Origin: a virus
IMG/VR virus record: IMGVR_UViG_3300010885_011315
Coordinates: 1 to 41,214 of that record
Direction: 5' to 3' (one strand)
DNA: 41,214 bases
In this document: positions 18,281 to 31,504 of the stretch, piece after piece
Position numbering within the stretch: the stretch's first letter is position 1
Layout: every line of letters starts with the position of its first letter
Notes under the pieces: model-generated
What the model was told of the DNA's origin: nothing
Database searches by the model: none
What the model saw: only the letters and a program-made list of their open reading frames with translations
Made by a program: the position numbers and the translations under genes

Positions 18281-18510
18281 AGATGGTGGAAAACATCATC
18301 TGGTGTACCCTCTGGAAATCGAGATCGTGTCGAGCCACAGGCGAAGGTCAAGAGATCTGGAATTGCCGCCAGATCTTAATTTGAGGAAGTATCATGGTAA
18401 CGCCCAGATCCTTCCCTCTCACTCCAATCCACCCAGCAGATAAGGCTCTATAGGTCATACTTGAAGCCGAGGGAGTGCAGAAGCACCCAGTTTCGCTCTG
18501 TGGGCTTCTT
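18281..18510 (+). ncRNA. candidate structured small RNA
   Basis: Starting at the expected start of the 18246 promoter, the sequence folds into successive local stems: CAGATG/CATCTG (18280-18285 with 18297-18302), AGATCTGG/CCAGATCT (18353-18360 with 18369-18376), GGAAG/CTTCC further on, and a bulged GAAGC-A-CC/GGGCTTC hairpin ending in TTCTTATATT near 18510. A 65-codon TTG-initiated frame overlaps it, but its start lies in the promoter and its product looks random. Family unknown. Confidence 0.4.
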
Positions 18511-18538
18511 ATATTCATAATCTATCTCTCTATAATAG

Positions 18539-18600: not shown

Positions 18601-18825
18601 ATGAAATCATACGACGAACTCCAACTAAACACGCTATCTCAAGCAAAACACCTCGCCTCTAACGGGGAAGAATTCTCTCATCTAATTAAAACGCTCTCTC
18701 CCGACAACTCATTGAGGATAAAACTACACGTGCAATCACTACCTGAGAGCATAGCGAACCAGACTATCTACGGGAAAGCTCATTGGAAGGAACAAAGCAC
18801 GGCCTCGCAAAAGAGACGCAAATGA
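18601..18825 (+). CDS. 74-aa protein, unknown
   Basis: The product starts MKSYDELQLNTLSQAKHLAS and ends with a basic tail (SQKRRK). It looks helical with no membrane segment. It has its own TATAAT-containing upstream region with a 16-bp direct repeat, no Shine-Dalgarno sequence, and its own terminator four bases after the stop, so it is probably a single-gene transcript. No family recognised; an early DNA-binding or host-modifying peptide is possible. Confidence 0.5.
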   Translation: MKSYDELQLNTLSQAKHLASNGEEFSHLIKTLSPDNSLRIKLHVQSLPESIANQTIYGKAHWKEQSTASQKRRK

Positions 18826-18826
18826 T

Positions 18827-18856
18827 GCGGAGATTAGGGGGATATTCTCCGCTTTT
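18827..18856 (+). terminator. intrinsic terminator
   Basis: GCGGAGA (18827-18833) pairs with TCTCCGC (18846-18852) and is followed by TTTT. It closes the 74-aa gene. Confidence 0.6.
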
Positions 18857-19094
18857 GTAACGCTGGGATTTTGGTAAAAAATTGTGGGGAGGTTTTTACG
18901 GAAAATCGTCACCGCAAAAACGTAAGACAAGAGGGGTGCCCGTCACTCGTTGTCCTCAAAATAAGGGATTCCTTAAACGATTGGCGGTTGTAAGACATGA
19001 TGAGTCATAGTCTGCAAGACATTTAGTTCTGGTAATAGGTTGGTGAATTGATAGGCTTGTCGTGTAAGGCAATAACGTCTTACAAAACCAAAAC

Positions 19095-19283
19095 ATGGCA
19101 ATGACACTAGACATACAGAAGGAATACATACTGTTAGAGAACGCAATCGCACAGGCCCTAGATAAGGCCGCTTTCATAGGCAATGAAATGGGAGGTAAGA
19201 CAAAGAACTATTCCAAGGTCGTTGATCTTTACGACGACCTTTCAGAAGCGATGACTAAGCTTCATGAAGCGATGGACGTATAA
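19095..19283 (+). CDS. 62-aa helical protein, unknown
   Basis: The product MAMTLDIQKEYILLENAIAQ continues as amphipathic helices (DLYDDLSEAMTKLHEAMDV) with no membrane segment. The leader is CA-rich (ACAAAACCAAAACATG) without a Shine-Dalgarno sequence and includes one copy of the GTCTTAC motif. A strong terminator follows 16 bases after the stop. It is flanked on both sides by the 8-mer array. It could be a small regulator acting there, which is inference from position only. Confidence 0.55.
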   Translation: MAMTLDIQKEYILLENAIAQALDKAAFIGNEMGGKTKNYSKVVDLYDDLSEAMTKLHEAMDV

Positions 19284-19299
19284 AACAAAGTAAGACAAG

Positions 19300-19322
19300 G
19301 GGAGGAGCAATCCTCCCTTTTT
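19300..19322 (+). terminator. intrinsic terminator
   Basis: GGGAGGA (19300-19306), loop GCAA, TCCTCCC (19311-19317), then five T. Perfect 7-bp stem with a stable tetraloop. Confidence 0.8.
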
Positions 19323-19334
19323 CTTTGCAGTCGA

Positions 19335-19455
19335 TGTCTTACATTCTATTGCTATCTCTTACCAGATTCCGTGTCTTACATTCTATCGCAAGCGAGCACA
19401 CTGTCTTACAAGCTATTATACAGCACTTGTCTTACAAATACTCGCCCTGTCTTAC
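19335..19455 (+). repeat. core of five same-direction TGTCTTAC iterons
   Basis: Copies start at 19335, 19372, 19402, 19428 and 19448, giving steps of 37, 30, 26 and 20 bases. The first two share a longer 18-base unit, TGTCTTACATTCTATTGC versus ...CTATCGC. The core fills the gap between the terminator at 19300 and the stop of the HTH gene and just enters that gene. Confidence 0.75.
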
Positions 19456-19976
19456 ACTGCCTCTTGTATGACATCCTGAGTCATCGCACGAGGAAAACCA
19501 GCAAGCGCATCTATCCCCATTTGCAAGACGTTCAACGACAACGTGGGTTTGTCGCTGTCGCTACCTATCCCAAAGATTGTCTTACCAGCTGTTGCGAGGT
19601 CTACCATCTTGCGAGAGTTGTCCAATGCAGAGAGAGAGTCCATGTCTTGTAAGGCATTAGCCGCTTTTGTAAGACCTTGTGCCATTGACGTGTGAAAACT
19701 CTTCTTATTCTCTTCAAGAGAAACCGACAAAGCATCGGAGGCGTGACAGATCGTGACAGCATCTCTGTGACCATTCTCTCTTTTAACCTCCAGTATCTCC
19801 TTTGATTTCGTGACAAGCTTTTGAGCGTTCGTTGATGTGGGCCATTCATCACGTTTTGCCCATTGCCTGATAGTCGCTGGTTTGATGCCATGAAGCCTTC
19901 CTGTCTCTGTAAGACAGCCTGTTGCAAGGTAGGTTGCTCTGACTTGATCTCTGTCTACTGCTAATGGTGAAGGCAT
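19452..19976 (-). CDS. HTH protein, possible small terminase subunit
   Basis: This 174-aa protein has an N-terminal helix-turn-helix: LATGCLTETGRLHGIKPATIRQWAKRD, with the recognition helix about residues 31-41, as in small terminase subunits and related phage DNA-binding proteins. Residues 55-125 are helical, suiting ring formation, and a C-terminal segment KPTLSLNVLQMG precedes a short tail. It is the only clear minus-strand gene inside the rightward region and is 8 kb from the large terminase. Several TGTCTTAC sites lie in and beside the gene, as pac sites do in the small-terminase genes of headful phages. It could instead be a transcription regulator. Confidence 0.5.
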   Translation of the reverse strand: MPSPLAVDRDQVRATYLATGCLTETGRLHGIKPATIRQWAKRDEWPTSTNAQKLVTKSKEILEVKRENGHRDAVTICHASDALSVSLEENKKSFHTSMAQGLTKAANALQDMDSLSALDNSRKMVDLATAGKTIFGIGSDSDKPTLSLNVLQMGIDALAGFPRAMTQDVIQEAV

Positions 19977-20013
19977 CGTGAAATGAGGTGTAACAATTGT
20001 GTGACAGATGGAG

Positions 20014-20041: not shown

Positions 20042-20163
20042 GCTTTTAAGTTTTTCGTGACAGAATTTATTTTCTTTATTTTTCAATGATTGCTTGGAAT
20101 CGGGAGTGGATTTGATATCTTTTGAGTGTCGAGAGACAACAAACCAACCAACCAACAAAAAAC

Positions 20164-25578: not shown

Positions 25579-25697
25579 GTTGTTTGTTTTGCAGAGGTTG
25601 GTTGCTCCTCTTGAAACCATTCAATCAGTTTTTGAAATTCGATCAAGAATTATTTTCAATTATTTTCACGCCTTCTGGAGCCGCATAAACACTAGCT

Positions 25698-25739
25698 CAA
25701 AAAGAAACCCCCACCCAGAACATGACAACTGGATGGGGG
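25698..25739 (-). terminator. intrinsic terminator after the SSB-like gene
   Basis: On the minus strand CCCCCATCCAG (25729-25739) pairs with CTGGGTGGGGG (25708-25718) across a ten-base loop, then TTTCTTTTT. It closes the replication block. Confidence 0.85.
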
Positions 25740-25767
25740 CTATGCGACCAACAACTACCGACAATTT

Positions 25768-28284: not shown

Positions 28285-29973
28285 CTACCGATAGTCAGAC
28301 TCCAATTCATTGTCCATAACAAAATCATCCCAATCGTCAGAATTTGAGGATTGACTTCCTGTGGCATCTCCGAATCCATGCTGTGCCACAAACAACTCAA
28401 TAAGTAAGGCAAGAGCATCAGCCCTGTCAGGAGAGCTTCCTTTGGTGCGCTTCTTCAAGTCCTTCTTACTCTCTAGCAACGTGCGTTCATTTCGCAGGGA
28501 ATAGATCCTAGCGCATAGCTCTCGTGCCGTTTGGTCATCTAGCCCCCTCATCCTTCCACTCATTATGATGACTTTGATCTGACCCCATAGCTGAGTTACC
28601 CGATTGGCGTAGACTTGCTTTGCAGGACGCTCATCCTCAACGCTAATTGGAGAATCAGTAGCCGCCCCTCCAAAGCTCACTCGCACGAATCCAGATTGCC
28701 AGCGTTGCGAGATGATGTCAGCAATGCCAGCACCAGCACCAGTTGCGTCCAAGGCAAAATCTTCTGGCTCCACATTGTTCTTTTTTAGCAACTCAATCGT
28801 CTGATCGGCAACTTGGTAAAATAAGGGATAGTTTGGATCATCCATAAGACTGAGCTTGATCGTCTCGGTGAGATTGATAGTGAGGTTGCCATCTGTTGCT
28901 TTACCTACCTTGGCGAAACGCAAGATACAATCATCCCCCTCAGTCGTGAATGCAGGGTCTAGTGCCGCTAGGGTTTTGAGGTCACCCCCTGTCCATACTA
29001 CCTTATCTCTGGCGCATCCTTCCGTAATCATGGCGGAATCAACCATTGTGTTCCTAGCTCCAGACTTGCTCCACATTCCCCTGCAATAGCTATTCCACTC
29101 CAGACTACCCTCGCCAAAATTCTTGCGGATTGTATCCACGTTGTCCTGACCAAAGAGGTAAGGATAGAGCAATCGTCCAGCCTTAATGTTTGGAGACTTA
29201 AGCCCATCAAACCTTACGCAAACTCCTGTCTTTGTCTCCCAATGCTCATCGTCATCTCCAATGCTACCCCATCCCATGTTTGGCTCGCAGAACAACCCAT
29301 GAGGATCAAATAAGCTAGAAGCGTTAGCAATAGCGACAAAGTGATAAAAGTCCGTACCAACCGCTAAGTTTGCCCTAGCAGAGAATACCGCTGGATTGGT
29401 CTGCGCCGCCTCATCAACCATGATTACCATTCTTGGCAAGTGAACACCCTGCAACTTGCCCACGGCTTGCTCTACAGCCCCACTATCAACCGCAAGGGCT
29501 GTTATAGCAGACCTATCATCACCCTTAGTGAACTGGATCTTGGTTTGGGAATCGACAACATTCAAACCGAATAACGGAACACATGGTCTAGTAAACCGCA
29601 TCATCTCAGCCCAGATACGACCACGAAGAGATGGAACAGTCGTGCTGGTTAAAGCCACACGAGTTCCCATTGGTTTAGCTAGATACTCCACCAGAGATAG
29701 CAAAGTGAACGTAAATGTCTTACCAGCGGCGGCACACCCAGTAACCCCGATCTCGTCATAGTTTGTCCATGCCCATAACGCCAACTCATTCCAATTATTC
29801 CAGCTTTTAATTACGTCAGGCCAAAGCATATGAATGCAATGCTTGATATGCTGACCCCTACTAATGCCAGTAACCCTAGATGGGTCTTTATCAGCCACCA
29901 TCAATAACTCAATCTCAAGTTGAGTTATGTTGGGGAACTTACTAAAGTCTAGTCCGTATGTTTGGAGCTTCAT
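28285..29973 (-). CDS. terL: large terminase subunit
   Basis: This 562-aa protein packages DNA into the prohead. The ATPase domain has Walker A GCAAAGKT (79-86) and Walker B VIMVDEA (183-189) with the catalytic Glu. The C-terminal RNase H-like nuclease domain has acidic residues in LAALDPAF (Asp about 339), FALDATGAG (about 410) and SPDRADALALL (near 520), as in TerL proteins. Length is normal. It follows the scaffold gene. A strong hairpin ends only seven bases before its ATG, leaving no room for a Shine-Dalgarno sequence. The small subunit is not next to it; a candidate is at 19452-19976. Confidence 0.92.
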   Translation of the reverse strand: MKLQTYGLDFSKFPNITQLEIELLMVADKDPSRVTGISRGQHIKHCIHMLWPDVIKSWNNWNELALWAWTNYDEIGVTGCAAAGKTFTFTLLSLVEYLAKPMGTRVALTSTTVPSLRGRIWAEMMRFTRPCVPLFGLNVVDSQTKIQFTKGDDRSAITALAVDSGAVEQAVGKLQGVHLPRMVIMVDEAAQTNPAVFSARANLAVGTDFYHFVAIANASSLFDPHGLFCEPNMGWGSIGDDDEHWETKTGVCVRFDGLKSPNIKAGRLLYPYLFGQDNVDTIRKNFGEGSLEWNSYCRGMWSKSGARNTMVDSAMITEGCARDKVVWTGGDLKTLAALDPAFTTEGDDCILRFAKVGKATDGNLTINLTETIKLSLMDDPNYPLFYQVADQTIELLKKNNVEPEDFALDATGAGAGIADIISQRWQSGFVRVSFGGAATDSPISVEDERPAKQVYANRVTQLWGQIKVIIMSGRMRGLDDQTARELCARIYSLRNERTLLESKKDLKKRTKGSSPDRADALALLIELFVAQHGFGDATGSQSSNSDDWDDFVMDNELESDYR

Positions 29974-31225: not shown

Positions 31226-31504
31226 TTAAAACTCTCCTGTGTAGCTAGGTTGAACCTCAGTAAACTCCTCTGGAACGATGGATAGGTTGTGAAGGTCTGT
31301 AATGATAGATGCCCTTCCTGCATCGAACCCGAATAAGACGGCGGCGTTATCTGCGATCTTGGTTAGCGCATTGGTGTTACCCAATGTCTTAGCCGCAGTT
31401 AAACTATCTGTTAGCTCAAGTGCCGCCTTCAATACGGGCAATTGCAGGATCTTTTTTAGCTCTACAGCTAGGGTTACATCAGCCCTCCATTCTTCAAATG
31501 TCAT
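31226..31504 (-). CDS. 92-aa protein in portal-scaffold block, unknown
   Basis: The product starts MTFEEWRADVTLAVELKKIL and has Ala/Leu-rich helices, ending EVQPSYTGEF. It resembles small helical proteins found between portal and scaffold genes in other phages, which are not well understood. It overlaps the upstream gene by 11 bases and lies four bases before the scaffold start, where the Shine-Dalgarno sequence for scaffold falls inside its last codons. Confidence 0.5.
   Translation of the reverse strand: MTFEEWRADVTLAVELKKILQLPVLKAALELTDSLTAAKTLGNTNALTKIADNAAVLFGFDAGRASIITDLHNLSIVPEEFTEVQPSYTGEF

Follow-up and report, generated by a model that had tools for sequence, protein, structure and literature searches.

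The closest precedents for the region described here are the pac sites of phages P22 and SPP1. In P22, the DNA signal lies inside the TerS coding sequence (PMC9611059), and in SPP1 the direct repeats of pac overlap the beginning of the TerS gene (PMC4737164). Whether small terminases read DNA sequence at all is unsettled: a review describes TerS binding to pac DNA as weak and mostly sequence-independent (PMC9611059), and it has been argued that the SF6 TerS does not read the repeats (PMC4737164).

Here, we analysed a 41,214-base IMG/VR phage record (the whole stretch of DNA, hereafter the window), for which a first-pass annotation had reported a dense array of one 8-mer in and around a gene with an HTH product. 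Comparison of about 30 relatives separates three layers: a conserved non-coding element, TGT[C/A]AC boxes, and the TGTCTTAC array. The stretch that holds them is probably a pac-like packaging-initiation (terminase recognition) region, with boxes bound by TerS and the array as an accessory. The features, in window positions, are:

18301 to 18517, plus strand: structured RNA upstream of gene A, with strong covariation
18601 to 18825, plus strand: gene A, which converges on TerS, encodes a basic protein of 74 aa and occurs in 19 of 21 genomes, counting the window
18842 to 19015, minus strand: conserved non-coding element, found by profile match, with invariant G-CG--CACC and AATTTTT
18856 to 18861, minus strand: site 3, a GTTACA (= TGTAAC) box at the distal end of the element
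18877 to 18883, minus strand: element core AATTTTT
18935 to 18944, minus strand: element core GACGGGCACC, a putative cleavage or core-recognition sequence
18922 to 19916, both strands: TGTCTTAC array
19335 to 19455, plus strand: densest block of the array, five same-direction copies with steps of 37, 30, 26 and 20, between the TerS stop and a terminator-like hairpin
19452 to 19976, minus strand: TerS-like gene (174 aa), with an N-terminal HTH, a predicted central helical hairpin and a conserved C-terminal motif
19743 to 19758, minus strand: site 2, a pair of TGTCAC boxes within the TerS gene at +218 and +228, with a third at 19810-19815
20001 to 20006, minus strand: site 1, a TGTCAC box lying 30 nt ahead of the TerS start, with a partner GTTACA at 19989-19994 and a further TGTCAC at 20057-20062
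28285 to 29973, minus strand: large terminase TerL (562 aa), with Walker and nuclease motifs, one PHROG TerL match and a structure model

The repeat array, the TerS-like gene and their phage group

The array comprises 11 exact TGTCTTAC/GTAAGACA copies, in both orientations and irregularly spaced (starts at 18922, 18990, 19195, 19290, 19335, 19372, 19402, 19428, 19448, 19578 and 19909), together with seven more one-mismatch copies; the rest of the window holds only three exact copies. In an unbiased scan of every 8-mer, TGTCTTAC ranked first with 11 in 1 kb, followed by its own overlap GTCTTACA with 9, and the next words reached 5. The best of any 8-mer in 20 second-order Markov sequences, our chance control, was 3-5 per kb at most. 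The array of the first-pass annotation is thus real, with 11 rather than ten exact copies, and the five same-direction copies and their steps proved correct on recount. It does ignore gene boundaries, as had been remarked: it enters the minus-strand HTH (TerS-like) gene, and it also covers a small ORF on the plus strand (19095-19283) and the intergenic DNA on both sides of that ORF. Its bulk falls in the interval separating the TerS-like gene (minus) from gene A (plus), which are convergent. A literature text search for TGTCTTAC as a word found no paper.

Repeats were also seen elsewhere in the group. At L007 3410-3640, a GACGAAAATGACCC tandem repeat is followed by three GTAAGACA copies 37 bp apart, forming a second small array 2.4 kb upstream of TerS, and in the G008 contig an intergenic gap away from the main array (46226-46260) holds two more GTAAGACA copies, spaced by 27 bp. 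A repeat region of about 15 copies of a word containing ACCAGAGAC lies at a contig end in L003 (G001; about 76-491), where it probably marks an assembly break.

The identification of the HTH protein as TerS-like is supported by several observations. Every one of the 21 homologues matches TerS PHROGs (best E 6.5e-7 to 2.4e-5), four main families being matched by 18-21 of the 21, mostly across the HTH, and the size of the protein (174 aa, about 19 kDa) would fit the TerS range of 15-21 kDa. The predicted structure (mean pLDDT 66) starts with the HTH, followed by a long helix, by a helical hairpin (79-110/114-135) as putative oligomerisation core and by a disordered or loose C-terminus, in agreement with the TerS protomer as described in PMC9611059; the fold class is a reading of this model, for which Foldseek returned no significant match. 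Both the sequence family and the N-terminal HTH fit a TerS, and the earlier impression of a small terminase subunit is supported by the PHROG matches and the structure model. Profile searches gave no match of the HTH protein to replication initiator families, and a PDB sequence search with the TerS and TerL profiles gave nothing significant. In 50,697 annotated phage records, the best TerS matches were only to the HTH of P2-like terminase ATPase subunits and were rejected. The gene is not adjacent to that of TerL, lying 6.5-9.7 kb downstream of it in related contigs; such adjacency is usual, not essential, for TerS.

Distant relatives keep the C-terminal motif SVNxLxLxxDxL, but their N-terminal domain has diverged strongly or been exchanged; L075 and L082 are TerS chimeras. 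Codons 65-66 of TerS (about 19779-19784), Lys-Arg AAA-AGA, are almost invariant among relatives, with Arg AGA in 171 of 171 pairs, which suggests a further DNA-level signal, TTAAAAGAGA. A 92-aa protein beside the portal-like gene (31226-31504, minus strand), conserved in 20 of 21 genomes, would be a remote alternative TerS candidate.

The gene set of the window is podovirus-like (TerL, a large portal-like protein, a DnaB-type helicase, an exonuclease and an Erf-type annealing protein), the portal and tail labels being readings from size and order, without profile match; no major capsid protein was recognised among the window ORFs read or scanned. The nuclease domain of the TerL model, which is otherwise poor, matches RB49 gp17 and Sf6 gp2 (E about 1e-4). 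More than 80 IMG/VR contigs carry this TerL, which has no relatives in the 50,697 annotated phage records, and a host search of 84,980 bacterial and archaeal genomes, using the profile of TerL and the pattern of the element, found no true relative. An HNH-type endonuclease-like protein, patchy in relatives, is encoded near the contig end (967-1629, minus strand).

Conserved element, boxes and neighbouring RNA

The most widely shared non-coding DNA of these genomes is the element, about 125 bp just downstream of TerS, which occurs in up to 19 of 21 other genomes and lies 3' of TerS in every family contig extending that far. Its core reads GACG[GC]RCACC and then, after 50-53 nt (mostly 51), AATTTTT, as seen in 32 distinct sequences. 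An RNA structure for the element was rejected for want of a consensus fold, and its inverted-repeat arms differ between phages, with no single common register. A look-alike core in L044, L058 and L062, where TerS is absent, is probably due to chance. The second most shared intergenic gap (25621-25767; nine other genomes) precedes the replication-gene block and is a possible promoter region.

The second layer is the TGT[C/A]AC box, which recurs at three fixed places: before TerS (within 65 nt; 27 of 29 phages), inside TerS (+140 to +340; 27 of 29) and at the end of the element (25 of 29), against chance expectations from random windows of 0.5, 1.9 and 0.5, respectively. The residues encoded by the in-gene box vary (AVT, DVT, IVT, VVT, VSR) and the element-end box is flipped in orientation in some phages, indicating that DNA, not protein, is what is kept. 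The boxes also persist in phages in which the HTH or the residues encoded are different. At amino-acid-identical positions, codon identity was 0.70 for box codons, some of which belong to TGTCTTAC copies, versus 0.44 elsewhere (p about 1e-4). One phage with a strongly diverged HTH, G022, has lost every TGT[C/A]AC box but kept the array, suggesting that TGT[C/A]AC goes with the HTH; G026 (locus L066), whose HTH is also diverged, is likewise without these boxes. As judged from these comparisons, TGT[C/A]AC is likely the box of the TerS HTH.

The TGTCTTAC array has a narrower distribution: roughly half of the phages have 5-11 copies, the others 0-2. Its presence requires two changes on the TerS tree versus six on the TerL tree, at least four of the latter being forced by well supported branches. 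Furthermore, G024 and G009 have near-identical TerL but differ in TerS type, and of the two the array is found in G009 only. Together, these results indicate that the array travels with the TerS cassette, a co-inheritance that physical linkage alone could explain because the array overlaps the TerS gene. HTH type alone does not predict the array: G005, with an HTH (KPATIRQWAKRD) like that of the window, has none, and G022, whose TerS has the C-terminal half of the array-bearing type, carries an array in the 3' part. The idea that genomes with the array share an accessory DNA-binding gene of their own was considered and rejected, as no gene family proved exclusive to them. The array is best read as a lineage-specific accessory box set, not a universal core, whereas the TGT[C/A]AC box and the element are near-universal. 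Of the first-pass proposal that the array is a candidate pac, the part that stands is a region behaving as a conserved cis-acting site in and beside TerS; the array as its core does not, being absent from about half the family. Absence of the motif from close relatives had been named as an argument against that proposal, and the comparison gave a divided answer, the motif being absent in some sister phages and kept in relatives sharing the TerS type.

Beyond the element, the order TerS, element, gene A and RNA recurs across genomes, with gene A between element and RNA wherever all three were seen. The gene A protein has no Pfam match. The RNA spans 217 positions and is present in at least 16 genomes or contigs of the group. 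In a model-fitted alignment, 91% of cells pair, double changes occur in 29 of 52 pairs, and the covariation score is 0.44 (0.19 shuffled, at most 0.14 slid); in an unfitted alignment, double changes occur in 19 of 35 pairs. An Rfam search found no match, and the RNA is a candidate for a new family or leader. It is present in most group members, preceded by promoter-like sequence and with a hairpin at its end. That the RNA and gene A join TerS and the element in one packaging cassette, with a structured RNA in or beside packaging initiation, is a speculation to which we give very little credence; a leader that controls gene A is just as possible a role for the RNA. To our knowledge, the pRNA of phi29 is the only packaging RNA known, and if the speculation were true, a TerS/TerL phage would use a structured RNA in or beside packaging initiation.

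Proposed packaging initiation and competing explanations

We propose that the region from about 18.84 to 20.06 kb is probably the terminase recognition region of this phage group, pac-like and possibly cos-like. The TerS-like protein, encoded within the region, would bind the TGT[C/A]AC boxes before its gene, in its gene and in the element. Bound TerS would hold the DNA for TerL, and the first packaging cut would fall in or near the element, whose core is GACGGGCACC...AATTTTT; packaging would presumably proceed by the headful mode. The TGTCTTAC array would be a second box set, inherited with the TerS cassette and most likely providing extra sites for the same nucleoprotein complex. In favour of a pac are the location in and beside the TerS gene and the conserved, cis-acting DNA boxes. 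Against packaging count a TerS profile match mainly in the HTH, the distance of TerS from TerL, and contig ends that are not piled at the element. Fixed ends near the element, suggested by a first look, were rejected with an unbiased TerL-based contig set: the ends of 57 TerL contigs ending within 10 kb downstream of TerL are scattered over the variable TerL-TerS region, and none of the 57 shares a terminus at the element. Of 22 large contigs, 8 can be closed into circles, and their break points differ; such circles would be in keeping with circularly permuted, terminally redundant virion DNA. Scattered ends and circles fit permuted or in-cell circular DNA, giving no support for cos and no proof of headful packaging.

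The same contig ends bear on a cos site with fixed staggered nicks in the GACGGGCACC core and boxes acting like cosB. The arrangement does resemble cosN-cosB, in that a compact conserved core next to TerS has binding boxes to one side of it, and one contig (G002) ends 4 nt before the core. However, a terminus common to independent genomes was not seen in the scattered ends, although ligation inside cells could hide cos ends, and the different break points of the circles also speak against it; we consider a cos site quite unlikely. Somewhat more weight, within the range of the unlikely, goes to a replication origin, in which the boxes would be initiator sites, the HTH protein a lambda-O-like initiator whose own gene contains the origin, and the element's A/T tracts (AATTTTTCC.AAAAA) a melting region. 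The boxes do lie in and beside the gene of a DNA-binding protein, the phage has a DnaB-type helicase and no other recognised initiator, and conservation of the element also fits an origin. Yet the profile matches of the HTH protein are to TerS families and none to initiators, the helicase is 6-8 kb away, and the array is irregular and two-way, without the regular same-direction spacing of iteron origins. GC skew, which had been suggested as a check for an origin, does not switch cleanly at the array; it tracks gene strand, which confounds it. Other origin-like evidence was not seen in the analysis, and an origin is less likely than packaging.

Transcriptional control, with the boxes as operators for an HTH protein that regulates itself or for a repressor from host or phage, appears more doubtful still. 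The TGT[C/A]AC pairs some 20-30 nt before the TerS start codon occupy a plausible operator place, but most of the array and the element fall inside coding sequence and in the gap where TerS and gene A converge, and array-bearing genomes have no regulator gene specific to them. We retain packaging initiation as the preferred reading. Its interest is that the family keeps the same box at three fixed places around TerS while protein and coding sequence diverge, with G022, where the HTH has diverged and the boxes are gone, as one natural exception. With defined sequences, predicted partners and natural swaps, this phage group makes sequence-specific TerS recognition testable.

Comparison with known systems

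Repeats inside the gene of their presumed reader are also found at lambda ori, whose iterons lie in gene O; here, in contrast, spacing is irregular and two-way, and the protein matches TerS, not initiators. This phage group has a podovirus-like gene set and genomes of 42-48 kb, as PaP3 does. The PaP3 cos and the lambda-type cos (cosN-cosB) share with our locus a conserved core next to TerS and neighbouring boxes, whereas no common contig terminus was found here, and the core is unlike the PaP3 cos 20-mer quoted in PMC9611059. P22 pac resembles the locus in placing a DNA signal inside TerS coding sequence, but is one 22-bp site, compared with multiple 6- and 8-bp boxes over 1 kb here. With the pac of the Bacillus headful phages SPP1 and SF6, the locus has in common several TerS-proximal sets of short repeats, which in those phages lie over the TerS gene start, and an HTH TerS of similar size (PMC4737164). 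It differs in that the boxes, whose words are unrelated, extend over the entire TerS gene and its flanks, that the invariant core is found downstream of this gene, and that TerS and TerL are 6.5-9.7 kb apart.
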